Of a stretch of 64,000 bases of DNA, positions 4,048-46,745 are shown piece after piece. Under the pieces are notes generated by a model. That model saw only the letters and a list, made by a program, of their open reading frames with translations. It did not search any database and was not told where the DNA came from. How positions within the stretch are numbered: position 1 is the stretch's first letter; every line of letters begins with the position of its first letter. Position numbers and translations under genes: made by a program. This stretch comes from Bauldia sp. Its GTDB lineage: Bacteria > Pseudomonadota > Alphaproteobacteria > Rhizobiales > Kaistiaceae. The stretch is from positions 1-64,000 of the forward strand of contig JAHCJZ010000007.1 of assembly GCA_026126025.1 (NCBI GenBank), written 5' to 3'.

Positions 4048-5561
4048 CGCCCACGGCGCCGGAGTGACGAGGCGCGCGACCCGCAGACCGCTACGGGACC
4101 CCGCGGACCGAACCAGATCGTCAACGCGTCGGTGAGACCCGTGGTGGCGGCCGTCTCCCCGACCCACGCCACATAGCCGTCGGGTCGGATGAGCACGGCG
4201 GTCGGCGCCGCGACCGCGCCGACGACGGGCAGCTCCCATGAGCCTTCATGGGCCGCGCTCACCGCCCTCACCCGGTCGGCCCACCCCGCGAGGTCGAAAT
4301 TGCCGTGGGCAGCGAAGCTGAGCAGCACCGGCCGCGCGTCATGCAGCAGGGTGAAAACTCGCGTCGGCCCGTCCGCGGTCTCGAGGTCGAGATCCGGCAT
4401 GCGGCGGCCGAGGAGGGGGTGTCCGGCGCCGAGATCGTAGCGGATGCCGAGGCCCGACATCTCCGCGCCGAGGCGCTGGCGCGGTTCGTCCATCGCGAGC
4501 AGCTCGCCCAGCATCTCGCGCACGGCCCTGGTGCGGTCGTCGTCGGGCCGGAGCGCGACCGAGGCCAGCGTGCGGCTGAGGACGCGGGCGGCAACCGGAT
4601 GGCGCTCGGCCTGGTAGGTGTCGAGGAGGCTCGCGGGCGCCGTCCCCTTCACGACCTGCGCCAGCTTCCACCCCAGATTCACCGCGTCCTGCACCCCGGT
4701 CTGGAGGCCCTGCCCGCCATCCGGCGGATGGATATGCGCGGCATCGCCGGCCAGCAGCACCCGTCCGACGCGATAGGACGCGGCCTGCCGCGCGGCGTCG
4801 GTGAAGCGGGAGAGCCAGGTCGGACTGTGGACGCCGAAATCGGTGCCGTAGACCGCGATCATCCCCTTTCTGAGATCGTCGAGATCGGGCTCGCCGGCCG
4901 CGCCCGCGTGCTGCTCCGTGACCATGATGCCGGCGCGCTTGCCGTCTTCCAGCCTGCTGAGCGCATGAATGCCGATCGCGTCACGACGAATGCCCCATTC
5001 CGGCGGCTCTTCGGACAGCTCCGCCTCCGCGATCAGATTGCTCGTCGTCGGATCGGTGCCGGGAAAGGCGATGCCCGCTACCTTGCGCACCAGGCTGCGG
5101 CCGCCGTCGCACCCGACGAGGTAGCGGGCCTGCAGCCCACGGCCGTCGGAGAGCGTGACGGCGACGCCGGTGTCGTCCTGCGTGAAGCCTGTCACCGCGG
5201 TGCCGCGATAGATCGGCACCCCCAGCTCGCCAACCCAGCCGGCGAGAATGCGCTCGGTATGGGCCTGCCACAGCGCGAGCCCGTAGGGATGCCGGGTCGG
5301 AAAATCGCTGATGTCGAGCCGGACACCGGCGAACCCGGCGACCTGCGCCTTCTGCCCCTCCGCCAGGAAGCGATCGGCGATCCCGCGCTGGTCGAACACC
5401 TCGATCGTGCGCGCGTGAAGCCCGCCCGCGCGCCGCCCAGCAAGGTCCTGGCTCGGGCGCCGTTCGACGATGGCGACATCGACCCCCGCCAGCGCCAGCT
5501 CGCCCGCCAGCATCAGCCCGGTCGGTCCGCCCCCTGCAATCACCACCGCATGATCGGTCAT
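3831..5561 (-). CDS. FAD-dependent aromatic-ring-type monooxygenase with 3' read-through
   Basis: Single-component flavoprotein monooxygenase of the PheA/TfdB/MhpA type (FAD_binding_3), using NAD(P)H and O2 to hydroxylate an unknown, probably aromatic, substrate. Seen: GGGPTGLMLA dinucleotide fold at residues 10-19, DG motif in GCDGGRS, and GDAAHIHPPDGGQGLQTG with the FAD-binding GD. A C-terminal thioredoxin-like domain ends near residue 485 (about nt 4107). The frame then continues 91 Arg/Ser-rich residues without a stop, 217 nt of it antisense to xth, so the normal stop looks lost or shifted. It sits between otherwise conserved xth and cNMP genes. Rifampicin or phenol hydroxylase activity cannot be told from sequence alone. 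Confidence 0.8.
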   Translation of the reverse strand: MTDHAVVIAGGGPTGLMLAGELALAGVDVAIVERRPSQDLAGRRAGGLHARTIEVFDQRGIADRFLAEGQKAQVAGFAGVRLDISDFPTRHPYGLALWQAHTERILAGWVGELGVPIYRGTAVTGFTQDDTGVAVTLSDGRGLQARYLVGCDGGRSLVRKVAGIAFPGTDPTTSNLIAEAELSEEPPEWGIRRDAIGIHALSRLEDGKRAGIMVTEQHAGAAGEPDLDDLRKGMIAVYGTDFGVHSPTWLSRFTDAARQAASYRVGRVLLAGDAAHIHPPDGGQGLQTGVQDAVNLGWKLAQVVKGTAPASLLDTYQAERHPVAARVLSRTLASVALRPDDDRTRAVREMLGELLAMDEPRQRLGAEMSGLGIRYDLGAGHPLLGRRMPDLDLETADGPTRVFTLLHDARPVLLSFAAHGNFDLAGWADRVRAVSAAHEGSWELPVVGAVAAPTAVLIRPDGYVAWVGETAATTGLTDALTIWFGPRGPVAVCGSRASSLRRRGRHPGRSSETRTSSAAGTAGPMRAMTGTWSEGRFQPRARRTTSMPVRRGRRGGVTQMWSRRRPRLESCQSWAR

Positions 5562-5736
5562 ATCCGCCTCCCCGAATCACGCCGCACGCTCGCGCGGCGC
5601 GGTTGCAAGGCTGCGGAATCTAGGCACGGCCGCGGCAATGCCAATTCTTGAAGTGAACTATCTCGGCGCCATCTATTTTCCAGGCGGCCAATTCAAACGC
5701 CGCTCTTCCCCCAGACGAAGCGGGACCGCCGGGCTG

Positions 5737-6198
5737 CTAGTCCCCCCGCCGCAGCATCGCCTGCACGCGCCGGAGCTCGCCGATCGTGGTGTTGACCCGC
5801 TCCGCCAGCCGCTTGTGGAGCGAGGACGCGACCCGCGGATATTCCTCCAGCATGCGGCGCATCGCCGGGCGGCTGATGTCGAGGACGGTGGCGACGCCCG
5901 CGGCGGTCGCGGTGGAGCGGCGGCGGGTGGCGATGAAGAGCGGCAGTTCGCCGATCAGGCAGCCGGGCCCGGCGCGCTCCAGCATCCGCCGCGCCTCGCC
6001 GGCGCCGGTCGAAAGCTCGATCGTGCCGAACACCACGACATAGCCGCCGCCGGCTTCCTCACCCTCGCGGAACAGGATCTCGCCATTGACGAGGTCGCGC
6101 CGGTTGGCGCTGAAGGCGAGGAGCCGCAGCTGGTCGCCGGCGAGGTCGTCGAACAGCGGGACCTCGGACAGGAGCTTGATGTCGCTTTCGAGGCTCAC
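5737..6198 (-). CDS. Cyclic nucleotide-binding (Crp/Fnr-type) domain protein without HTH
   Basis: 153 aa, essentially one cNMP-binding jelly roll (residues about 8-120) followed by a helical tail. It contains DLVNGEILFREGE, the phosphate-binding-cassette-like GCLIGELPLF, and RRRSTATAAGVATVLDISR. There is no C-terminal helix-turn-helix, so it is a stand-alone sensor or adaptor rather than a CRP-type transcription factor. It lies 19 bp downstream of the response regulator gene on the same strand and is probably co-transcribed. The cassette lacks the RxTAA Arg of true cAMP binders, so the ligand is uncertain. Confidence 0.85.
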   Translation of the reverse strand: MSLESDIKLLSEVPLFDDLAGDQLRLLAFSANRRDLVNGEILFREGEEAGGGYVVVFGTIELSTGAGEARRMLERAGPGCLIGELPLFIATRRRSTATAAGVATVLDISRPAMRRMLEEYPRVASSLHKRLAERVNTTIGELRRVQAMLRRGD

Positions 6199-6217
6199 CG
6201 GGTCGGTCCCCGGCCCG

Positions 6218-6901
6218 TCACGGCACCAGCCGGTAGCCGCCGCCCTCGGTGACGAGAAGCTCGGCCTCGGCCGGCTTCTTCTCGATCTTCTGGCGCAGGC
6301 GGTAGATGTGCGTTTCGAGCGTGTGGGTGGTCACGCCGCTATTGTAGCCCCACACCTCGTGGAGCAGCACGTCGCGCGTCACCACCTTCTCGCCGGCGCG
6401 GTAGAGATATTTGAGGATCGCAGTTTCCTTCTCGGTGAGGCGCACCTTCTGGCCGCGCTCGTCGACGAGGAGCTTGGCGCTCGGCCGGAAGGTGTAGGGA
6501 CCGATGGTGAAGGTCGCGTCCTCGCTCTGGTCGAACTGCCGCAGCTGCGCCCGGATGCGGGCGAGGAGCGCCGCGAAGCGGAACGGCTTGGTGACGTAGT
6601 CATTGGCGCCGGAATCGAGACCGCGCACGGTGTCGCTCTCCGAATCCTGCGCCGTCAGCATGATGATCGGCGCCTTGAAGCCGCCGGCGCGCAGCTGCTT
6701 CACCGCATCGCGGCCGTCGATGTCGGGAAGGCCGACATCCATCACCACGAGATCGGGCTTGTCCTTCCGCGCCCGCTCGACGCCGTCGAGCGCGGTCCGC
6801 GCCTGGAGGATGTCGAACTCCTCGCTGAGCGCGAGTTGCTCGACGAGGCTTTCCCGCAACATGTCGTCGTCGTCCACGACCAGAAGCTTGCGCGCGGTCA
6901 A
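6218..6901 (-). CDS. OmpR/PhoB-family response regulator
   Basis: Two-domain response regulator of about 227 aa. The receiver has the acidic cluster VVDDDD (residues 8-13), phospho-acceptor D55 in VVMDVGLP, T in MLTAQ and K in VTKPF. The winged helix is C-terminal (RLTEKETAILKYLYRAGEKVVTRDVLLHEVWGY, then THTLETHIYRLRQKIE). I choose the TTG at 6901 because the receiver starts directly there and AGGAAA lies 7 nt upstream; the frame continues further upstream without domain content. No histidine kinase gene is adjacent. The downstream gene is the cNMP-binding protein. Confidence 0.9.
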   Translation of the reverse strand: MTARKLLVVDDDDMLRESLVEQLALSEEFDILQARTALDGVERARKDKPDLVVMDVGLPDIDGRDAVKQLRAGGFKAPIIMLTAQDSESDTVRGLDSGANDYVTKPFRFAALLARIRAQLRQFDQSEDATFTIGPYTFRPSAKLLVDERGQKVRLTEKETAILKYLYRAGEKVVTRDVLLHEVWGYNSGVTTHTLETHIYRLRQKIEKKPAEAELLVTEGGGYRLVP

Positions 6902-7036
6902 GGTTGGGTTTCCTGCCGGTTGAGCGTGCAACTCAGGACGCCGGCGGCCTGCCAGGCGCCGGGCGGCCGCAATGTGACCCGCGAGGGGTGTCAACGCAAG
7001 CGCCGCGCGCCTGCGCGACACTGTGATGGCCGCGAC

Positions 7037-7735
7037 CTACCGCGTCCCGAACAGCGCGCTGCCGATCCGCAGCTCCGTGGCGCCATAGGCGATCGCGAGC
7101 TCGAAATCCGCGCTCATGCCCATCGACAGCGCGGTAAGGCCGAGTTCGCGCGCGAGCTTCGCGGTCAGCGCGAAATGCGGTCCCGGCGGCTCGTCTAGCG
7201 GCGGGATGCACATCAGCCCGTCGATGGTAAGCCCGTAGACCGTCCGGCAGCGCTCCACGAAGGCGGCCGTCTCGGCCGGCGCGACGCCGGCCTTCTGCGG
7301 CTCCTCGCCGATATTGACCTGGACCAGGAGGCGCGGCGAGCGGCCCTGCTTCCGCATCTCCTTCGCGAGCGCATCGGCAATCTTGTCGCGGTCGACCGAG
7401 TGGATCGCGTCGAACAGCGCCACCGCCTCGGCCGCCTTGTTCGACTGCAGCGGCCCGATCAGCTCGACCGTCAGGCCCGGCGTCTCGGCCCGCAGCGCCG
7501 GCCATTTGGCCTTGGCCTCCTGCACCCGGTTCTCGCCGAACACGCGCTGACCCCCGGCGATCAAGGGTCGTATCGCATCCGAATCGAAGGTCTTGCTGAC
7601 CGCGATCAGCCGGGCCGAGCCCTCCGGCCGGCCGGCCTCGCGCTCGGCGACGGCGATCCGCCGCCGCACCTCGGCGAGCCGCGACGCCGCGGCCGCGTTG
7701 CCCTCATCCGCCCGGGCTCCTGCATCCGCTGGCAA
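7037..7735 (-). CDS. yggS: YggS-family PLP homeostasis protein
   Basis: Binds pyridoxal 5'-phosphate and controls its free pool; no catalytic activity is established for the family. Seen: TIM-barrel alanine-racemase-like fold with the PLP lysine in LIAVSKTF, GENRVQEAKAK, HSVDRDKIADAL, LVQVNIGEEPQKAG and SMGMSADFELAI. About 232 aa from TTG 7735. I favour this TTG over ATG 7750 because AGGAGG (7747-7742) sits 6 nt before it and would be inside the coding region if ATG were used. Divergent from leuS. Confidence 0.93.
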   Translation of the reverse strand: MPADAGARADEGNAAAASRLAEVRRRIAVAEREAGRPEGSARLIAVSKTFDSDAIRPLIAGGQRVFGENRVQEAKAKWPALRAETPGLTVELIGPLQSNKAAEAVALFDAIHSVDRDKIADALAKEMRKQGRSPRLLVQVNIGEEPQKAGVAPAETAAFVERCRTVYGLTIDGLMCIPPLDEPPGPHFALTAKLARELGLTALSMGMSADFELAIAYGATELRIGSALFGTR

Positions 7736-7741
7736 GTCGCA

Positions 7742-7747
7742 CCTCCT
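7742..7747 (-). promoter_or_regulatory. Shine-Dalgarno AGGAGG deciding the yggS TTG start
   Basis: A perfect AGGAGG on the minus strand lies 6 nt before TTG 7735. It overlaps the upstream ATG 7750 reading, which has no purine tract of its own at a suitable distance. Confidence 0.6.
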
Positions 7748-7832
7748 CATGATTGACCGGCGCCGCCTTTTGCGCTGATGGTCCGCCGGCCCGCGCGGCC
7801 GGTCATCCGGGCGCGCCGAACGGATATCTCGC

Positions 7833-10502
7833 ATGACCACGGAACGTTACAACCCGGCCGAGGCGGAGCCGCGCTGGCAGGCGGCGTGGGCCGAAGCCGG
7901 CATCTTCGCCACGCGGAACGACGACCCGCGGCCGAAATATTACGTCCTCGAGATGTTCCCCTACCCGTCGGGGCGCATCCATATGGGCCACGTCCGCAAC
8001 TACACCATGGGCGACGTGGTGGCGCGCTTCATGCGGGCGAAGGGCCACAACGTCCTCCATCCGATGGGCTGGGACGCCTTCGGCCTGCCGGCCGAGAACG
8101 CCGCCGCGCAGCGCGGCATCCACCCGCTTGTGTGGACCTACGAGAACATCGCGGCGATGCGCGATCAGCTGAAGCTGATGGGCCTGTCGCTCGACTGGGC
8201 GCGCGAATTCGCGACCTGCGACGTCGCCTACTACCACCAGCAGCAGAAGCTCTTCCTCGATTTCCTCGCCGCCGGCCTCGCCTACCGCAAGAGCGCCACC
8301 GTCAACTGGGACCCGGTCGACCAGACCGTGCTCGCCAACGAGCAGGTGATCGACGGGAAGGGCTGGCGCTCCGGCGCGCCAGTCGAGCAGCGCGAGCTGA
8401 CCCAGTGGTTCCTGAGGATCACAGCCTATAGCGACGAGCTCCTGTCGGCGCTGGATACGCTGGACCGCTGGCCCGACCGCGTGCGCCTGATGCAGCGCAA
8501 CTGGATCGGCCGCTCGGAGGGCCTGCGCGTCCGCTTCGCCCTTGCCGAAGGCGCGCCGGCCGGCTTCGGCGAGGTCGAGGTCTTCACCACGCGGCCGGAC
8601 ACGCTGTTCGGCGCGAGCTTCATCGCGCTCGCCCCCGACCACCCGCTGTCGGCCGCGCTGGGAGCGGGCAACCCGGAGCTCGCGGCCTTCATCGAGCGCT
8701 GCCGGCAGCGCGGCACCAGCACGGCGGCGATCGACACCGCAGAGAAGGAAGGCTTCGACACCGGGCTCCGCGCCGCGCACCCCTTCCGGCCCGGCGCGAC
8801 GCTGCCGGTCTATGTCGCGAACTTCATCCTGATGGAGTACGGCACCGGCGCGATCTTCGGCTGCCCCGCGCACGACCAGCGCGACTTCGAGTTCGCCACC
8901 AAATACCGCCTGCCGATCATTCCGGTGGTGGCACCGCTCGATCGTTTCGCAAGCGAATCGGACCTTGCGGCCTGGCTCGGCGCGTTCGGCGCCGACGGCG
9001 AGCCCTTCGTCGACGACGGCCGGCTGGTCAATTCCGAGTTCCTCGACGGGCTGTCCGTGGCCGAGGCCAAGGAGGCGGTCGCCCAGCGGCTGGAGGCGCA
9101 GTCCCTCAACGGCGCCCCGCAGGCGGCGCGCCAGGTGAACTACCGCCTCCGCGACTGGGGCATTTCGCGCCAGCGTTATTGGGGCTGCCCGATCCCGGTG
9201 ATCCATTGCGCGCGCTGCGGCGTGCAGCCTGTGCCCGAGGCCGACCTCCCCGTCACGCTCCCCGACGACGTCACCTTCGACAAGCCGGGCAACCCGTTGG
9301 CGCGCCACCCGACCTGGCGGAATGTCGCCTGCCCGAAATGCGGCGGGCCGGCAGAGCGCGAGACCGACACCATGGACACCTTCGTCGATTCGTCCTGGTA
9401 CTTCGCCCGCTTCACCGCACCCGACGCGCCGCAGCCGCTCGACCGCGCGGCCGCCGATTCCTGGCTGCCGGTGAACCAGTATATCGGCGGCATCGAGCAC
9501 GCGATCCTCCACCTCCTCTATTCGCGCTTCTTCACCCGCGCGATGAAGGCGACCGGCCATGTCGGGCTGAGCGAGCCCTTCGCCGGCCTGTTCACGCAGG
9601 GGATGGTGGTCCACGAGACCTACCGCCGCGCCGACGACAGCTGGGCCGCGCCGGCCGAGGTGCGGATCGAGGAGGACGGCGCAACGCGGCGCGCCTTCGA
9701 CCGCGCGACCGGCGAGGCGCTCGCCATCGGCCCGATCGAGAAGATGTCGAAGTCGCGCCGCAACACCGTCGACCCGTCCGACATCATGGGCACTTATGGC
9801 GCCGACACCGCGCGCTGGTTCATGCTGTCGGATTCTCCGCCCGAGCGCGACGTGATCTGGAGCGAGGCCGGCGTCGAGGGCGCGCACCGCTTCGTCCAGC
9901 GCGTCTGGCGCCTCGTCGGCGAGGTCAACCGCATCGCGCCCTTCCCCGGACTCGGCCACCAACCGCCGGTCGCGATGGACCCGCCGGCGCTGAAGCTCCG
10001 CCAGACCGCGCACCGCACGCTGAAGGCCGTCGAGGAGCACTTCGCCGCGCTCCGCTTCAACGTCGCGGTCGCCCGCATCTACGAGCTCGTCAACGCGATC
10101 GCCGCCGAGGTCCAGGCCGCGGGCACCTCCGGCGGCCCCGACGAGGGCGACCCGGCGACGTCCTACGCCGTCCGCGAGGCGTTCGAGCTCCTGGTCCACA
10201 TGATCGCGCCGATGACCCCGCACCTTGCCGAGGCCTGCTGGGACGCCCTCGGCGGCACCGACCTCATCGCGACCCGCGCCTGGCCCGAAGCCGACCCGGC
10301 GCTCCTCGCCCGCGACACCATCGTCCTGCCGGTGCAGGTCAACGGCAAGAAGCGCGCCGAGCTGACGATCGACGCCGGCGCCGCCATCGCCGACATCGAA
10401 GCCGCCACCCTCGGCCTCGACGCCGTCCAGCGCGCCCTCGAAGGCAAGCCGCCGAAGCGCGTCGTCGTGGTCCCCAACCGCATCGTCAACGTGGTGCTGT
10501 GA
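7833..10502 (+). CDS. leuS: Leucyl-tRNA synthetase
   Basis: Charges tRNA-Leu. 889 aa, full length for the bacterial class Ia enzyme. Signature 1 is [11 protein letters not shown] (residues about 44-53). The CP1 editing domain carries [12 protein letters not shown] and the GCPAHDQRD-type active-site region. A second signature, KMSKSRRN, lies near residue 637, followed by the anticodon-binding and C-terminal domains. In many Alphaproteobacteria leuS is followed by lptE and holA; here only a 148-bp repeat-bearing gap separates leuS and holA. Confidence 0.98.
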
Positions 10503-40697: not shown

Positions 40698-41318
40698 TCA
40701 GGCGGCGAGCGCGGTCACGGCGCCGAACATGCGGAAGGAGAGCGATTCGGCGAGGTGGATGCGCCCGACCGCGTCGGCGCCGTCGAGGTCGGCCAGCGTA
40801 CGCGCGACCTTGAGGACACGGTGATAGCCGCGGGCGGAAAGCCGCATCGCCTCGGCGGCGTCGCGCAGCAGCGCCAGCGCCGCGCCGTCGGCCGCCACCA
40901 GCGTTTCGATCAGCGCCGCCGGGCATTGCGCGTTGGTCCGCACCCCGTCGGCGCCCGCCGCGGCGTAGCGCTGCGCCTGGACCGCCCGCGCCGCAGCGAC
41001 CCGGGCGGCGACCGCGGCGCTCGCCTCCGACGCCGCCGGGCCGATGAGATCGACCGCGGTGACCGCCGGCACCTCGATGCGGAGGTCAATGCGGTCGAGG
41101 AACGGGCCGGAGACCCGGGCCTGGTAATCGTCGGCGCAGCGCCGGCCGCGCCGGCAGGTCATGCCGGGCTCGCCCGCCATGCCGCAGCGGCAGGGGTTCA
41201 TCGCCGCGACCAGCTGGAAGCGGGCGGGATAGGTGACGCGATTGTTGGCGCGGGCGATCGCGACGGCGCCATTCTCCAGCGGCTGGCGGAGCGAATCGAG
41301 CGCCTGCGGCGTGAACTC
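40698..41318 (-). pseudogene. comM: comM, 3' fragment (split by transposon)
   Basis: C-terminal 40 percent of the Mg-chelatase-like AAA+ helicase ComM, which drives branch migration during natural transformation. Reads EFTPQALDSLRQ, VAAMNPCRCGM with its Cys-rich motif, SGPFLDRIDL, and LSARGYHRVLKVARTLADL. No start codon belongs to it except internal ATGs, the first at 41201. It continues in frame from the 45826-46745 fragment once the element and one 8-bp duplicate are removed (511 codons in all, with no internal stop). Confidence 0.93.
41311..41318. repeat. Left target-site duplication GTGAACTC
   Basis: The 8-bp sequence GTGAACTC is repeated at 45826-45833, on the other side of the element. 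Eight bp is the duplication length known for IS1595-family transposons. Confidence 0.9.
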
Positions 41319-41345
41319 CGGAATTATGTAGCTGTCTCACCCGCT
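41319..41345 (+). repeat. Left terminal inverted repeat
   Basis: 27 bp, starts CGGAATTATGTAGCTG and ends CACCCGCT. Exact complement of 45799-45825. Confidence 0.92.
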
Positions 41346-41384
41346 GACACTATGATCCCGCCGGTCGTGGGCGGGGGTGTCGGA

Positions 41385-42257
41385 ATGAGCGAAGCAGCGC
41401 GGGCTCTAAACAAGGTTCACCTGGACCAGTTTAGTGCGTCCAAGGCGGTGACCTTCTCCCGCATTCAGTCCATGTGGTGGCCGGCGTTTATCGAAGGCTT
41501 CGCGGCCAACGGCACCGCGTCCGTTGACGCTCTCGATTCATTCATGGACGCCGGCCGAGCAAAGATGCTCGAAATGGCTGTCGAGTATGCCAAGGGGAAG
41601 CACGACGAGGCTGACTTGGCGAAGACGGTCCAGCTCCAGACGCAGGTGCTCAAATCCAACACAGGTAAGATGTTTGAGCGCTTCGTGGGGCTAGCCGTCG
41701 CGCACGTTCTCTATGAGATGGATTCCGACTACTGCATCTTGCCGTTTGCGGGGCCGTTCATAAAGCTCTGCAACGGTGTCTCCGCTGAGCGTTTTATGGT
41801 GTCGGTTGCGCTCGGCGCCCACGCCCTCGAAACGAGGATCGACGCTGACCTCTTCGCTTTTAATCCGGACCAGGTCGATGGCGAGTTCTTCATGATCTCG
41901 ATCAAGTCGACCTTAAAGGATCGCTTCCACAACGTCCCTTTCTGGAATCTTCTCCGTAGGGCAGCAATGGCCACCGACTTACCTGAGATTCAGGCCAGAG
42001 ACGCAGCGATGCTTGGACGCGTGAAGTACGTTGCTATCTGTAGCGACCTCGCACTGGAGCAACCAGACTTTGCCACCGACGCTGGCGCTCGGCAGATGCT
42101 CCAGGTGGATGCGGCTCTTCTCGACGGGGCGTATGTTACGGCGTCCCGGGCAAAGGGCGTAGCCACGACAGGGCGGCATCTTGGACAGGACCGCGACGCC
42201 GCTTTCTTTCGGCTGCACTGCTTAACTGACTATTGGACGACAGGCAGAAACGCATGA
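41385..42257 (+). CDS. Type II restriction endonuclease, CCGG-family-like
   Basis: 290 aa from ATG 41385 (an in-frame ATG at 41352 would add 11 residues). An N-terminal helical part precedes a PD-(D/E)xK-type core. ETRIDADLF supplies an acidic residue, and FFMISIKSTLKDRFHN holds the S-x-K catalytic pair plus the K-S/T-x-L-(R/K)-(D/E)-R motif seen in BsaWI/AgeI/EcoRII-like enzymes that read CCGG or CCNGG. Paired with a convergent C5 methyltransferase. The family call rests on this motif and on context; the recognition sequence is inferred. Its 3' end overlaps the methylase gene by 122 bp tail to tail. Confidence 0.75.
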   Translation: MSEAARALNKVHLDQFSASKAVTFSRIQSMWWPAFIEGFAANGTASVDALDSFMDAGRAKMLEMAVEYAKGKHDEADLAKTVQLQTQVLKSNTGKMFERFVGLAVAHVLYEMDSDYCILPFAGPFIKLCNGVSAERFMVSVALGAHALETRIDADLFAFNPDQVDGEFFMISIKSTLKDRFHNVPFWNLLRRAAMATDLPEIQARDAAMLGRVKYVAICSDLALEQPDFATDAGARQMLQVDAALLDGAYVTASRAKGVATTGRHLGQDRDAAFFRLHCLTDYWTTGRNA

Positions 42258-43368
42258 CAGCCGCGCCGATGGCCTCCGCCATCATCGGGGGGACCGCGTT
42301 GCCGACCTGTTGCGTCTGGGAGCAGTAGCCGAGCCTCCGCATTTTGTTGCCGGTGGTCCGCTGGCCCATGAACTCATATCGGTCCGGAAAGCTCTGAATA
42401 CGCGCGAGTTCGCGAACCGTGGGAATCCGATTCAGCGTCGGGTGGAGGAAGTCAGTCGGCTCGGTGGTGATCGTTCGAGCGAGGCCGTTGAGCGGCCACC
42501 GCTGAATCCCTTGCTTGCCGTTGCGCAGCGCCTTGGGAATATCCAGGCAGGTGCCGCCCGCGGGAACGAGGCCATAGTAGTCCATCGTCGCCTGGCGGTG
42601 GCGGCTTGCTTCATGGTTGAAGATGGTCTTTGCGCCATCTCGCATCCGCCTCTGGTAATTGGTGCTGGGCCGCGCCGTGTATGTGAAGCCTTCCTCGCCG
42701 CTGTCGATGGCAGGAAGATCGCCAAGCGCATCGCCACAGGTCGTGTACGGGGTAAGGCCGCGTTCAAATAGGCCGCCGTCCTTGTTCCCGTAGGTCGCGG
42801 CCGGGTGGTCCGGCACCGCGCCCTGTCGCGCGCCAATCACTATTAGTCGGCGTCGCATTTGCGGAACACCGTAGTCGGCGGCGAAGACCGTCTTGGGTCG
42901 AAACGAGTATCCGGATGCAGCCAGCTCCTCTAGGACGTTTTCAAAGAGCCGACCGTTGTGAAGCGACTGGAGCCCGGTGACGTTCTCAAGAATGAAGTAA
43001 CGGGGCCTCAGCTCCCGAACGATGCGGATGAAGTCCCCGATCAGCGTGTTTCTTGGATCGTCAACGTCCTTCATTCCCGCCGTCGAGTAGCCCTGGCACG
43101 GCGGCCCGCCCGCGATCAGATCAATTTCCGGCTGACGCCTCGGATCTAGGCCTGCGGCGCGGAGAAGATCGGCTCCGGTTAGGTCGCGGATCGACGCATT
43201 CACCACGGGTACGTTCGGAAAGTTCCTCTTGAGGGTGAGGCAGGGGTGGGGGTGAACCTCGTTGGCAACGAGCGTCTTGAACCCGGCCATCTCAAGACCG
43301 AGCATCATTCCGCCAGCGCCGGCGAAAAGCTCAATGCAGGTAGGAGTCGCAAACTCTCGCGTACGCAT
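42136..43368 (-). CDS. DNA (cytosine-5-)-methyltransferase, restriction-modification type
   Basis: Protects the host from the partner endonuclease by methylating C5 of cytosine. About 410 aa. Motif I ELFAGAGGMMLGLEMAGF, motif IV GGPPCQGYS with the catalytic Cys, motif VI ENV in FILENVTG, motif VIII QMRRRLIVIG, a target-recognition region, and motif IX/X RELARIQSFPD and QVGNAVPPMMAEAIG. ATG 43368, or GTG 43371 in tandem. It is downstream of and probably co-transcribed with the DUF6471-like gene. The C-terminal 40 residues are encoded opposite the endonuclease 3' end. Confidence 0.94.
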   Translation of the reverse strand: MRTREFATPTCIELFAGAGGMMLGLEMAGFKTLVANEVHPHPCLTLKRNFPNVPVVNASIRDLTGADLLRAAGLDPRRQPEIDLIAGGPPCQGYSTAGMKDVDDPRNTLIGDFIRIVRELRPRYFILENVTGLQSLHNGRLFENVLEELAASGYSFRPKTVFAADYGVPQMRRRLIVIGARQGAVPDHPAATYGNKDGGLFERGLTPYTTCGDALGDLPAIDSGEEGFTYTARPSTNYQRRMRDGAKTIFNHEASRHRQATMDYYGLVPAGGTCLDIPKALRNGKQGIQRWPLNGLARTITTEPTDFLHPTLNRIPTVRELARIQSFPDRYEFMGQRTTGNKMRRLGYCSQTQQVGNAVPPMMAEAIGAAVMRFCLSSNSQLSSAAERKRRRGPVQDAALSWLRPLPGTP

Positions 43369-43389
43369 CACGCCTTCCCCTCACTCGCT

Positions 43390-43707
43390 TCACTCTTCGC
43401 CGAGATGAATTGTCCGACAGCCGATCGCTTCCATGCACTGGAAGAAGAAGACTGCGGTGAACGCTCCGCGGCCGATCTTGTTTGAAATGTTTCGTCGGTT
43501 CTCGCTGACGCCGATTGCCTCAAGGCGGTCAGCCAGGTCGGCATAGCTGAGGTTCTTCAGCTTCAATTGGGCCTTGAGCAGCCCCTTCACCCGAGCCTGC
43601 CACTGCTTCGTGTTTGCGCGTGCAACCACAGGAGAGTCACCGTATCCGATGTCTGAGTCATCGTAGTCGGTGCGAATGCCGTTGACAAGCCGTGTGGATA
43701 ACACCAT
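43390..43707 (-). CDS. DUF6471-like small protein, candidate R-M controller
   Basis: 105 aa. The core KGLLKAQLKLKNLSYADLADRLEAIGV reads like an HTH, followed by NRRNISNKIGRGAFTAVFFFQCMEAIG, which I recognise as the DUF6471 pattern. It precedes the methylase start by about 20 nt on the same strand and is divergent from the transposase, with only 5 bp between the two start codons. Gene order (small HTH-like gene directly before the methylase) is that of control proteins in R-M systems. A regulatory role is inference; the protein has no proven function that I know of. Confidence 0.72.
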   Translation of the reverse strand: MVLSTRLVNGIRTDYDDSDIGYGDSPVVARANTKQWQARVKGLLKAQLKLKNLSYADLADRLEAIGVSENRRNISNKIGRGAFTAVFFFQCMEAIGCRTIHLGEE

Positions 43708-43712
43708 ATTTG

Positions 43713-44723
43713 ATGTCAGACGACATCGAACGTGGTGTTTCCTTGGCTCAGCAGTTCCTCCTTTCGGCAGCGGCGCGGACGCTCTCTCTGAGCGCTATCG
43801 CCCGCATGTCGGATGAGGAGGCGCGGGCAGCGTTCCAGCGTATCCGTTGGGCCGAAAACGGCGGGGAGCCGTACTGCCCGCGTTGCGGTTGCCTCAAGGT
43901 CGGTCGCATTGCGACCCGGCCCGTGTGGAAGTGCGGCGACTGCCGCTATCAGTTCAGCGTCACGGCAGGGACGATCTTCGAGAACCGCAAGCGCCCGATC
44001 CGTGACTACCTCTTGGCGATTGCCATCTTCGTCAACGGCGCGAAGGGCCATAGCGCCCTCCAACTGAGCCGCGACCTCGACTGCCAGTACAAGACGGCGT
44101 TCGTGCTCGCGCACAAACTCCGCGAAGCTATCGCCGCCGAACAGGCCGGTCACCAGCTCGCAGGCACCGTCGAGATCGACGGCGCGTACTTCGCCGGGCA
44201 TCGGAAGCCCGCCAACAAGGCCGCCGACCGTATCGACCGTCGCCTTGCGGAGGAACAGACGGGCAAGCGCAAGGTGGTCGTGGTGCTCCGCCAGCGCGGC
44301 GGCCGGACACTCGCGTTCGTCACGCGCAAGGAAAGCGACGGCGTCGCCATCGTTCGCCAGCGCGTTGCCATGGGCAGCACCCTACAGGCCGACGAAGCGA
44401 GCGGATGGGACACCCTTTACGCCCACTACGACATGAAGCGGGTGAACCATCGCGTCGAGTACAAGGCCGCCGACGGCGCGAACACTAATCAAGCCGAGTC
44501 CTACTTCTCCCGGCTTCGGCGCGCCGAGATCGGCGTGCATCACCGGATCGGCGCTCGCCACCTTCTCCAGTACGCCCGCGAAATGGCGTGGCGTGAGGAT
44601 CGTCGCCGCGTCAGCAACGGCGGCCAGGCGAACGAAGTCGCGGCCCTCGCGCTCGGGCATCCCGTCAGCCGCGAATGGGCAGGCTACTGGCAGCGGTCAT
44701 TCCCGAAACAGGCAGCGGAGTAG
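43713..44723 (+). CDS. IS1595-family (ISXO2-like) transposase
   Basis: DDE-type transposase, 336 aa from ATG 43713 (a GTG at 43692 would overlap the divergent gene). N-terminal zinc ribbon CPRCG...CGDC (first Cys at 55), FSVTAGTIFENRKRPI, catalytic D in VEIDGAYFAGH, second D in LQADEASGWD, and the terminal NTNQAESYFSRLRRAEIGVHHRI region. All family hallmarks are present with no frameshift. Together with intact inverted repeats this makes the element potentially autonomous. Confidence 0.95.
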   Translation: MSDDIERGVSLAQQFLLSAAARTLSLSAIARMSDEEARAAFQRIRWAENGGEPYCPRCGCLKVGRIATRPVWKCGDCRYQFSVTAGTIFENRKRPIRDYLLAIAIFVNGAKGHSALQLSRDLDCQYKTAFVLAHKLREAIAAEQAGHQLAGTVEIDGAYFAGHRKPANKAADRIDRRLAEEQTGKRKVVVVLRQRGGRTLAFVTRKESDGVAIVRQRVAMGSTLQADEASGWDTLYAHYDMKRVNHRVEYKAADGANTNQAESYFSRLRRAEIGVHHRIGARHLLQYAREMAWREDRRRVSNGGQANEVAALALGHPVSREWAGYWQRSFPKQAAE

Positions 44724-44733
44724 GAAGCGGTCA

Positions 44734-45165
44734 ATGGCTGAGTCCCATGTCCTCACCGGCCTCATGGCGAAGCGTGCGGAGCTGTCGGGACAGGTCGAAA
44801 CCCTCCAGCGCGAGATGCGCGCGCTGGTGCTGGCTATCGACCATATCGATGCGACGATCCGAGTGTTCGATCCCGACGCCGATTTGGATGACATCAAACC
44901 CAAGTTGCCGCCCCGGCACTCGGCGTTCCGTGGTGAGGTAACCAGGCTCGTTCTCACCGCGCTGCGGAAGTCCAATAAGCCGCTGTCCGTCTCCGATCTC
45001 ACCCTTCATGTTGCCGCCGGTCGCGGGCTAAACAACGAAGACAAACCGTTCCTGCGCGTGCTTTCGAAGCGGGTCGGCGCATGTCTGCGGAACCTCCGCA
45101 AGAAGGAACTTGTGCGGCTTCGGCAAGAGCCCGGCCACGTTGGTCTGTGGGAGATCGTCAGCTAG
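44734..45165 (+). CDS. Coiled-coil/winged-helix-like passenger protein of the transposon
   Basis: 143 aa. The N-terminal helix (LMAKRAELSGQVETLQREMRALVLAIDHID) is probably coiled coil; a linker with PKLPPRHSAFRGEV follows. The C-terminal half (RLVLTALRKSNKPLSVSDLTLHV ... LRNLRKKELVRLRQEPG) looks like a winged helix. It starts 10 bp after the transposase stop, so it is co-transcribed. I recall similar genes next to IS1595 transposases in other Alphaproteobacteria. Function is unknown; a transposition accessory role is a guess. Confidence 0.7.
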   Translation: MAESHVLTGLMAKRAELSGQVETLQREMRALVLAIDHIDATIRVFDPDADLDDIKPKLPPRHSAFRGEVTRLVLTALRKSNKPLSVSDLTLHVAAGRGLNNEDKPFLRVLSKRVGACLRNLRKKELVRLRQEPGHVGLWEIVS

Positions 45166-45352
45166 CGGGCAGGCCCGGAAGGCGGACAACCTTCTGAGCA
45201 TGCATCTGCTTGAGCATGTCGATGATCAACGTCCGCGCGATTTCCGCGCGGTTGGTCCCGTATGCCTTGCTTGGAAGCAATTGCATCATCGTTTCAATGA
45301 TTTCGTCGGGGAGCGTCACGTTGAAGGACGTGGTGCCCGGAGCTGTCGCCAT
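45158..45352 (-). CDS. Ribbon-helix-helix protein of the transposon
   Basis: 64 aa from ATG 45352: TSFNVTLPDEIIETMMQLL (beta-strand and helix A) then NRAEIARTLIIDMLKQM (helix B), as in Arc/MetJ/CopG-fold repressors. A perfect 20-bp palindrome ends 10 bp upstream of the start (45362-45381), the expected place for an autoregulatory operator. The stop overlaps the convergent passenger gene by 8 bp. Could be an orphan antitoxin or a regulator of the element; no toxin-like gene is adjacent. Confidence 0.68.
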   Translation of the reverse strand: MATAPGTTSFNVTLPDEIIETMMQLLPSKAYGTNRAEIARTLIIDMLKQMHAQKVVRLPGLPAS

Positions 45353-45361
45353 GGAACCCTC

Positions 45362-45393
45362 GACATTGCCTTGGCAATGTCTCGGCATTGTCG
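45362..45393. promoter_or_regulatory. Palindromic operator upstream of the RHH gene
   Basis: GACATTGCC-TT-GGCAATGTC (45362-45381) is a perfect 9+2+9 palindrome. A third half-site, GGCATTGTC, follows at 45385-45393 with one base different. Three spaced half-sites directly upstream of an RHH gene are typical of cooperative RHH binding. Confidence 0.65.
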
Positions 45394-45548
45394 TACATTT
45401 TGTCGCGCGAAGCGATTCGACGTGACTGTTGCAAGATGGCGCGGCAGGATCGGATCGCAAGAGAGGGGCGGCCGAAGCCGCCCCCCAAGTACCTTCGGGC
45501 GAAGGTTAGTTCAGGCGTCCCGCAGGATAGCGGGGCGGCCGACGGAAG

Positions 45549-45573
45549 TGGGAGGTTACATCCTCCCATTTTT
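45549..45573 (+). terminator. Intrinsic terminator in the transposon right end
   Basis: TGGGAGG-TTACAT-CCTCCCA is a perfect 7-bp stem immediately followed by TTTTT, pointing in the plus direction. It could end transcription from the transposase/passenger genes or from an unrecognised short transcript. Confidence 0.65.
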
Positions 45574-45798
45574 CGTATCTAAGCCGCAGGTATCTGCGGA
45601 CAGAGACTGTCTTCACGTCTGTCGGGTCTTCCGTTTCCATTGTCGTTCTCCGGTTGCCGGGGCGGAGGATGCCCCGGTGCCAAAGGGCTCTCGCCCGGCG
45701 GTTGGAGAAGCGACGCGGTCGGGAATAGCCGACTCCAGCCAATATGCAAGATTCGATGGGAACCTACTAGAGAAAGTAGGCGTCGCTCACAGCATCTA

Positions 45799-45825
45799 AG
45801 CGGGTGAGACAGCTACATAATTCCG
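45799..45825 (-). repeat. Right terminal inverted repeat
   Basis: 27 bp, exact reverse complement of 41319-41345; followed by the second GTGAACTC copy. Confidence 0.92.
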
Positions 45826-45833
45826 GTGAACTC
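45826..45833. repeat. Right target-site duplication GTGAACTC
   Basis: Second copy of the 8-bp sequence at 41311-41318; it encodes part of the comM motif DELPEFT. Confidence 0.9.
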
Positions 45834-46745
45834 CGGCAGCTCGTCGAGGAAGAGGACGCCATTGTGCGCCAGCGACGCCTCGCCGGGCCGGATGTGCAGC
45901 CCGCCGCCGACCATCGCCGCCATCGAGGCGGAGTGATGTGGCGCGCGGAACGGCCGCCGCGCGCTGAGCCGGCCGCCGGGCAGCGCCCCCGCGATCGAGG
46001 CGATCATCGAGATTTCGAGGAGCTCCTTCGGCGCCAGCGGCGGCAGGATCGACGGCAGGCGCGCGGCGAGCATCGACTTGCCGGCGCCGGGCGGGCCGAC
46101 CATCAGGAGATTGTGGCCGCCCGCGGCCGCGACCTCGAGCGCGCGGCGCGCCGTCTCCTGGCCCTTCACCTCGGCAAGGTCGGGCATCGCGCCGTCGGCG
46201 GCGGCGACCGCCGGCTGCGGCCGCGGCAGGATCTGCGTGCCCTTGAAGTGGTTGGCGATGGCGATGAGGCTGCGCGGCGCGAGGATGTCCATCTCGCCGC
46301 TCGCCCACGCCGCCTCGGGGCCGCAGGCGTGGGGACAGATCAGCCCGAGGCCGCGGGCGTTCGCCGCCATCGCGGCCGGCAGCACGCCGGCGACCGGCGC
46401 GATCGTGCCGTCGAGCGCCAGCTCGCCGAGAACGACATAGCTGCCGAGGCGGTCCGCCGGGATTGCCCCGAGCGCGGCCATCAGCCCGAGGGCGATCGGC
46501 AGGTCGTAATGGCTGCCTTCCTTCGGCAGGTCGGCCGGGGCGAGGTTGACCGTGATGCGCCGGGCCGGCAGCGCGAGGCCGCTGGCATGAAGCGCGGCGC
46601 GCAGGCGCTCGCGGCTCTCGCCCACCGCCTTGTCCGGCAGCCCGACGATGGTGAAGCCGACGATGCCCGGCGCGATCTGCACCTGGACGTCGACCGCCAC
46701 GGCGTCGATGCCGCGAAACGCAACGGTGGTGACGTGACTGACCAT
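45826..46745 (-). pseudogene. comM: comM, 5' fragment (split by transposon)
   Basis: N-terminal 60 percent of ComM: the ChlI-like domain (VQIAPGIVGFTIVGLPDKAVGESRERLRAAL, read in parts; VNLAPADLPKEGSHYDLPIA), the AAA+ Walker A GPPGAGKSMLA, FRAPHHSAS, and Walker B GVLFLDELPEF, where the element enters. The truncated frame runs a few codons into the transposon before a stop. ATG 46745 fits the family start. Loss of the C-terminal part should inactivate the branch-migration helicase and reduce natural transformation. Confidence 0.93.

Follow-up and report, generated by a model that had tools for sequence, protein, structure and literature searches.

A cargo-bearing IS1595-family transposon in comM of Bauldia sp. 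and a candidate target selector shared by its alphaproteobacterial relatives

The first 64,000 nucleotides of contig JAHCJZ010000007.1 of Bauldia sp. (GCA_026126025.1), hereafter the window, contain a 4,507-bp element of the insertion sequence (IS) family IS1595 at positions 41319–45825, which lies within the gene comM. We propose, with a probability of about 70%, that it is a cargo-bearing member of an alphaproteobacterial IS1595 transposon lineage that possesses an exchangeable target selector, a 143-residue protein termed ACC, and that it here carries a putative restriction-modification (R-M) system. Members of the lineage are IS1595 transposons that carry cargo and enter a narrow range of target sites, foremost in comM. 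Judged from sequence comparisons, ACC is a good candidate for the protein that selects these sites; its association with the target is also seen outside the set of elements in which it was discovered, although it is far from a rule.

An IS1595 element within comM

Two terminal inverted repeats, identical over 27 bp, delimit the element (left, 41319–41345, plus strand; right, 45799–45825, minus strand; one detection gave 28-bp arms), and similar ends of the form CGGnnTTA(T/G)G are found in its relatives. The 8-bp target duplication GTGAACTC abuts both ends (41311–41318 and 45826–45833); its minus-strand reading, GAGTTCAC, corresponds to the comM codons from E305. Re-reading of the sequence found the 27-bp repeats and 8-bp duplicates claimed in a preliminary description of this DNA to be exact to the base. 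A de novo search around the transposase for all end pairs accompanied by a duplication ranked the pair 41319/45825 top, with a score of 46.0 versus 32.0 for the runner-up, so chance is no serious explanation of the ends. In its own genome, a 45-contig draft, the left-end sequence matches solely at the two ends of the window element, which is thus a single copy; a near match to the whole element was absent among phage records.

The transposase (43713–44723, plus strand; 336 residues) is assigned to the ISXO2-like IS1595 proteins by Pfam, NCBIfam and alignment, with matches to Pfam DDE_Tnp_IS1595 (E 4.5e-40) and Zn_ribbon_IS1595 (E 6.2e-12) and to NCBIfam IS1595 (E 5e-41). Among 16 aligned sequences, that of the window included, the residues D156, D227 and E262, which we take to be catalytic, and C55, C58, C74 and C77, presumably zinc-binding, are invariant. 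The protein is full-length and appears intact, as the preliminary description had stated for its ISXO2-type transposase. According to the family description in passages of PMC8101967, IS1595 elements generate an 8-bp target duplication, and an N-terminal zinc ribbon occurs in all groups except IS1016; the window element has the DDE domain, the zinc ribbon, the terminal inverted repeats and the 8-bp duplication. A simple IS has a single transposase gene, but five further genes lie between these ends, and the element is therefore a transporter IS (tIS).

The interrupted gene encodes ComM (YifB), a Mg-chelatase-like AAA+ protein. Its 5' part lies at 45834–46745 on the minus strand (Pfam ChlI and Mg_chelatase; start checked) and its 3' part at 40698–41318 on the same strand (Pfam Mg_chelatase and Mg_chelatase_C; stop checked), and the two halves, rejoined across the element, form an open frame. 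In both other genomes of the genus (three were searched, including its own), comM runs uninterrupted and free of stops across the site, at 80–81% DNA identity. R-M genes at this locus without the inverted repeats were not seen: comM is empty in both congeners, and the endonuclease gene occurs in its own genome only, with no copy in the remaining 27 of the 28 family genomes or in the other 384 of the 385 class genomes sampled below. The preliminary description had mentioned neither the comM insertion nor any site preference. In other bacteria, as set out in passages of PMC11472951, ComM is a helicase that aids recombination with heterologous DNA, and its loss lowers transformation.

A conserved core at recurrent target sites

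Relatives were collected from an even sample of 385 genomes of the class; 38 of them (including the window's own) have a transposase match at E ≤ 1e-30; 20 matches besides that of the window are 48–64% identical. To 20 regions from this class sample were added 80 named loci, the best 80 of 548 confirmed, picked by transposase similarity alone. Four of these 80 are metagenome bins labelled otherwise (Paceibacterota L073, Bryobacteraceae L090, Chromatiaceae L112 and Stygiobacter L113), and the rest are Alphaproteobacteria or “Proteobacteria” bins. Ends were found by a script with fixed thresholds (terminal inverted repeats 17/24, target duplication 7/8, core 19/28); 30 failing rows were excluded (three contigs twice), and L064 was dropped for sharing a contig with L037. 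In total, 70 distinct elements were delimited from 101 rows, window included. All eight base pairs are duplicated in 68 of the 70; the elements are 1,874–7,610 bp long (median ~3,900), and their G+C content is below that of the flanks in 67 of 69.

Each of the 70 elements has the transposase (69 labelled by the script; that of L045 was mislabelled, though its frame is open) and ACC (~143 residues), and 50 of them have a DUF6471 protein. These counts of ACC and DUF6471 were made at model E ≤ 0.01; rows that had contributed to the models number 13 among the 70 for ACC and 9 among the 50 for DUF6471. Since both recur whatever the cargo, two of the three small genes that the preliminary description had grouped with the R-M pair belong to the transposon core; the genes themselves are present, but not as R-M genes, and a role as R-M control genes was rejected on the same ground. 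An ACC match was also found in all 15 elements delimited later, as well as in six plasmid records, all of which have a transposase match too, with both places within 40 bp in three of them. At 12 distant IS1595 loci (~1/3 identical), neither ACC nor DUF6471 was found within ~1.5 kb on either side.

In the window, ACC is encoded at 44734–45165 on the plus strand and has a long N-terminal helix and a C-terminal winged helix. Pfam and NCBIfam give no match to it, and none of 47 ACC proteins is covered by an NCBIfam model. The structure predicted from a 47-row alignment (pLDDT 91.6) consists of a 44-residue helix followed by the winged helix; a Foldseek search with it returned no match at E ≤ 0.001, the best being at E 6.6e-3, and the top rows are mostly winged-helix proteins (SmtB, ZitR, Fur). 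The DUF6471 protein of the window (43390–43707, minus strand; Pfam E 1.4e-28; start possibly further in) has a Cro-like helix-turn-helix by inspection, and no literature was found under the name DUF6471. In 34 of 49 cases, a membrane stretch is predicted for the largest unlabelled protein encoded next to DUF6471.

comM is the target of 29 of the 70 elements, the window's included, at two codon positions only: 16 at the DELPEF site (codons from E305), of which one is displaced by a single base, and a further 13 at the E-x-L site (codons from E241). Its share was 5 of 14 delimited elements in the evenly drawn class sample. Identities of at least 0.52 were reached by 191 site pairs, versus a maximum of 0.483 after shuffling (2,415 pairs). 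Orientations within comM are mixed (8/8 at DELPEF, 8/5 at E-x-L); for instance, L059 and L063, with ACC 90% and transposase 91% identical, lie in opposite orientation at the same position. Because very similar elements sit in opposite orientations, elements at the same place in comM represent separate insertions.

Beyond comM, a family-2 glycosyltransferase gene is hit at a DYP site (4 elements) and an NHFR site (3), a related gene (GT2b) in two elements, and an SLBB polysaccharide-export gene at one exact site in three. The glycosyltransferase-gene insertions are L065, L088, L089, L124, L062, L073 and L131 at DYP or NHFR, and L117 and L132 at another conserved position. L055 and L125 lie at the last mnmE codons (FCIGK end); their ACC proteins are mutual nearest neighbours, while their transposases are not. 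L122 sits directly 3' of tRNA-Gln(ctg), which L101 and L047, both outside the 70, also adjoin; the tRNA 3' end lies within ~8 bp of the element end (L122:6565–6646, L101:2658–2739 and L047:10883–10965). L113 follows the same tRNA-Gln tail of ~25 bases, at which ARAGORN calls no gene. In addition, L108, L118, L123 and L127 are located in or beside short hairpins that resemble terminators or repeats; among their ACC proteins, those of L118 and L127 are nearest neighbours, and L127 is nearest to L108.

Among these elements, the target follows similarity of ACC better than that of the transposase. The two proteins were compared on 68 elements, with L045 (transposase frame) and L082 (ACC length) each missing from one table; before the final comparison, L073, L113 and L122 had received labels after flank reading, and “other” had been assigned to L045 and L049. 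Among 45 labelled cases, the nearest neighbour has the same target in 35 by ACC versus 19 by transposase (in 5,000 shuffles, 6.4 on average and 18 at most); with the earlier labels the counts were 36/43 and 20/43. Among neighbours below 65% transposase identity, the target is shared in 27 of 38 by ACC versus 3 of 38 by transposase. Same-target and different-target pairs are separated with an area under the curve (AUC) of 0.87 by ACC and 0.56 by transposase. On quick maximum-likelihood trees, without shuffled controls, the target changes seven times for ACC, the minimum for eight classes, versus 18 times for the transposase. Where the genera are known, ACC nearest neighbours with a common target come from the same genus in seven cases and from different genera in nine.

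A rule was fixed before new regions were examined, namely that the target is predicted from the nearest ACC neighbour at ≥45% identity. Nineteen loci were fetched and 18 kept (L149 was dropped, being on the same contig as L123); 15 could be delimited, five of them in comM. Three of seven labelled predictions were correct (L150, L151 and L158), each naming the right one of the two comM sites; L147, L155, L157 and L160 were predicted wrongly, and six other elements fell below 45%. Moreover, 30 earlier loci lacking a full end pair were read by eye, 11 of which have a labelled ACC prediction: it was correct for L047, L101, L128 and L133 and wrong for L077, L090, L110 and L097 (gene right, other site), and for L070, L078 and L095 the target was not decidable. 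L038/L105, on one contig, were left out with an ACC match of 33–34 residues only; their flank, CATTTCCG, agrees with the NHFR class to which that match belongs. Apparent nested or tandem ends, with two lineage elements at one place, were seen at L078:6547–10472, L095:6305 and L047:7569–10883. Over the decided sites combined, ACC was correct in 7 of 15 versus the transposase in 2 of the same 15 (L101 and L133). Permuted ACC predictions were correct in 2.0 on average, and reached at least seven in 0.0001 of 20,000 draws.

Cargo of the window element and its relatives

Judging by its genes, the cargo of the window element is most likely a type II R-M system with a putative nuclease. The C5-cytosine DNA methyltransferase (42136–43368, minus strand; 410 residues) is intact and matches Pfam DNA_methylase (E 1.2e-64) and PADLOC MTase_II (E 1.2e-103) over nearly its full length; its translation contains PCQGYS, ENV and RRR, which we take to be C5-methyltransferase motifs. 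The putative restriction endonuclease (41385–42257, plus strand; 290 residues) has RE_BsaWI as its sole Pfam match (E 0.016; 15.7 bits versus a cut-off of 26.2), covering residues 151–195 and with them SIKSTLKDR, a stretch that resembles a PD-(D/E)XK active site. The two genes are convergent, and their 3' ends overlap by 122 bp. The preliminary description had placed an endonuclease-methylase pair inside one IS1595 element; the methyltransferase stands, and the endonuclease is retained as putative. The remaining small gene (45158–45352, minus strand) encodes a ribbon-helix-helix-like protein of 64 residues with weak matches to NikR models (E 0.0043 and 0.0069); one similar open reading frame (ORF) was found, in L071.

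The preliminary description had proposed looking for the same element at other sites, and none was found: beyond the window's own genome the endonuclease has no match in the class genomes, nor in plasmids or the PDB, and a scan of genome contigs gave 32 pattern matches with 0 confirmed. Elsewhere, 4 of the 69 other elements do combine the lineage ends with methyltransferase or R-M genes. The five methyltransferase-bearing elements among the 70 are those of the window, L087, L045, L062 and L079. L087 (Magnetospirillum sp. 64-120; 4825–9629) carries a C5 methyltransferase (E 1.1e-68), a NotI-type endonuclease (E 3.3e-9) and Vsr (E 5.4e-29); in both C5 elements, the methyltransferase gene is convergent with the endonuclease gene and divergent from that of the transposase. 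L045, L062 and L079 carry single-chain N6/N4 methyltransferases, with an Mrr nuclease domain in L045 and L062. The window's genome holds two of the five: L045 (contig 41, 7219–11644; 4,426 bp; duplicate TGTAGGAG) lies in a gene with a fragment that hits the Competence (ComEC) family (E 6.1e-19), so that one element lies in comM and one in comEC. Searched against the 70 rejoined sites, the comEC fragment matched L045 alone.

Passenger ORFs were scanned if they had at least 140 residues, or 110 with a relative in another element (150 of 152 qualifying ORFs). Among the Pfam matches listed (25 of 42 families) there are five Panacea, five M78 peptidase, two Fic and two KilA-N, together with three N6/N4 and two C5 methyltransferases. 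PADLOC assigned MTase_II in five lineage members and RmrA in five, and a PemK-type protein is present in L036.

Target selection and comparison with known systems

Several observations weigh against ACC as the selector or against the R-M cargo. One set of elements served both to discover and to test the link between ACC and target, and the two comM sites are less well told apart from each other (AUC 0.74 for ACC and 0.55 for transposase). Among the new loci, the comM insertions L152 and L154 were missed by ACC, whose neighbour was labelled “other”, and were found by the transposase neighbour; on these loci alone, ACC with 3/7 and transposase with 2/8 labelled predictions (L152 and L154) show no clear difference. 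Over all decided sites the ACC prediction failed in 8 of 15, and 8 of the 15 were read by eye. Elements with a comM-like ACC sit elsewhere in six genomes whose comM carries no insertion, so targeting is not absolute; the idea that they went off-target because comM was already occupied was rejected, comM being insertion-free in all six (two with one in-frame TGA). As for the cargo, the endonuclease call combines a sub-threshold Pfam match with an AlphaFold model that was unusable (no alignment, pLDDT 34.5).

It seems rather unlikely that the transposase alone prefers GAATTC-like near-palindromes, that comM recurs by way of fixed codons, and that ACC follows through co-inheritance or local recombination. 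Many duplications at the DELPEF site do read GAATTCnn, and many elsewhere contain GAA or TTC; the ACC gene usually lies close to one element end, so that recombination in the flank could carry it along with the site; and at the DELPEF site 13 of 16 elements point the same way as their nearest neighbour (7.5 expected), consistent with a degree of descent in place. However, the E-x-L, DYP, NHFR, SLBB and tRNA-Gln sites would share at most a short core, too common to yield a single position per gene, transposase similarity barely separates target pairs and requires many changes on its tree, and opposite orientations at one position are seen between close relatives. That there is no target selection at all, with near-random insertion and comM over-represented because its loss is harmless or favoured (less transformation, less curing), is highly implausible. 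comM is indeed interrupted repeatedly by diverse elements in Acinetobacter baumannii, where selection may act on its loss (passages of PMC11472951); yet such selection should accept many positions, and all 29 insertions fall on two codon positions, a single element being one base off. Moreover, twelve further elements share exact sites elsewhere (DYP 4, NHFR 3, SLBB 3 and GT2b 2), and some adjoin the 3' end of tRNA-Gln. Regarding the cargo, we consider it improbable that the methyltransferase is an orphan whose neighbour is no nuclease, which would make it an epigenetic module rather than an R-M system. The sub-cut-off match, the unusable model and the lack of matches in the class genomes would agree with an orphan, but the pair is convergent and overlapping, as in L087, whose partner matches NotI, and the weak RE_BsaWI match includes the stretch that resembles an active site.

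We retain the reading of a cargo-bearing lineage with ACC as exchangeable selector. In a possible mechanism, the transposase would cut and join the element ends, while ACC would dimerise via its long helix, bind target DNA by its winged helix and thereby choose the site, to which it would recruit the transposase. The Cro-like DUF6471 protein, encoded divergently from the transposase, may regulate transposase and cargo from divergent promoters. The preliminary description had inferred a self-mobile R-M cassette that could spread by transposition and addict its host; in the present reading, the R-M pair would restrict foreign DNA and make loss of the element costly. Loss of comM should lower the recombination of foreign DNA in natural transformation, and would be combined with a cargo that could destroy unmethylated DNA. 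More tentatively, at slightly under even odds, we suggest that in a widespread lineage swaps of this small winged-helix selector retarget the elements to exact codons in comM, glycosyltransferase and polysaccharide-export genes or to the 3' end of tRNA-Gln, that the cargo comprises R-M, toxin-antitoxin-like and unknown genes, and that transformation genes (comM, once comEC) are often switched off, guarding against removal.

R-M systems that are transposon-like or linked to insertion sequences, which move or flank their genes, have been described before, among them PaeR7I with IS1/IS5 (passages of PMC3031569) and, as cited in the same passages, PluTI and a plasmid R-M system of Rhizobium leguminosarum. 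Unlike in these systems, one element holds the window R-M genes as cargo together with its transposase and a partner protein. The statement of the preliminary description that some IS1595 elements carry passenger genes agrees with tIS such as tISCpe8 and MTnSag1, for which lincomycin resistance and mobilizable (IME) elements are named (passages of PMC5704250 and PMC3129680). Like the window element, they combine an IS1595 DDE transposase and passenger genes in one element; unlike it, these tIS descriptions, in the passages concerned, mention no ACC-like partner, no R-M cargo and no comM site. The Tn7-like AbaR islands of Acinetobacter baumannii are also transposons that interrupt comM, and other comM interruptions there carry defence systems (passages of PMC11472951). 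However, the AbaR islands have the Tn7-like genes TniA, TniC and Orf4 (same passages), whereas the window element has an IS1595 transposase and ACC. No Tn7-like gene was found by Pfam and NCBIfam among the scanned proteins of the element. In the literature on IS1595 passengers, mobile R-M systems, tIS and comM targeting, we recognised no description of this lineage, judged by titles and abstract openings and with subscription papers largely outside, so that this is no proof of absence.

The lineage would represent a second transposon lineage that homes in on comM, beside AbaR. It bears on the idea, discussed for Acinetobacter and Legionella in passages of PMC11472951, that mobile elements escape removal by shutting down natural transformation; in the window's genome, two competence genes, comM and comEC, each hold an element with restriction-type cargo. 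Tn7-like elements are known to choose their targets by means of a separate protein. Tn7 itself has the alternative target selectors TnsD and TnsE, and in the IS1595 lineage, too, site choice seems to fall to a partner protein distinct from the transposase. Unlike in Tn7, this partner is small and of the winged-helix type, and the window element shows no sign of an ATPase partner. If the proposal is true, the lineage is an IS1595 counterpart of Tn7 targeting, in the form of a much smaller system whose specificity is exchangeable.

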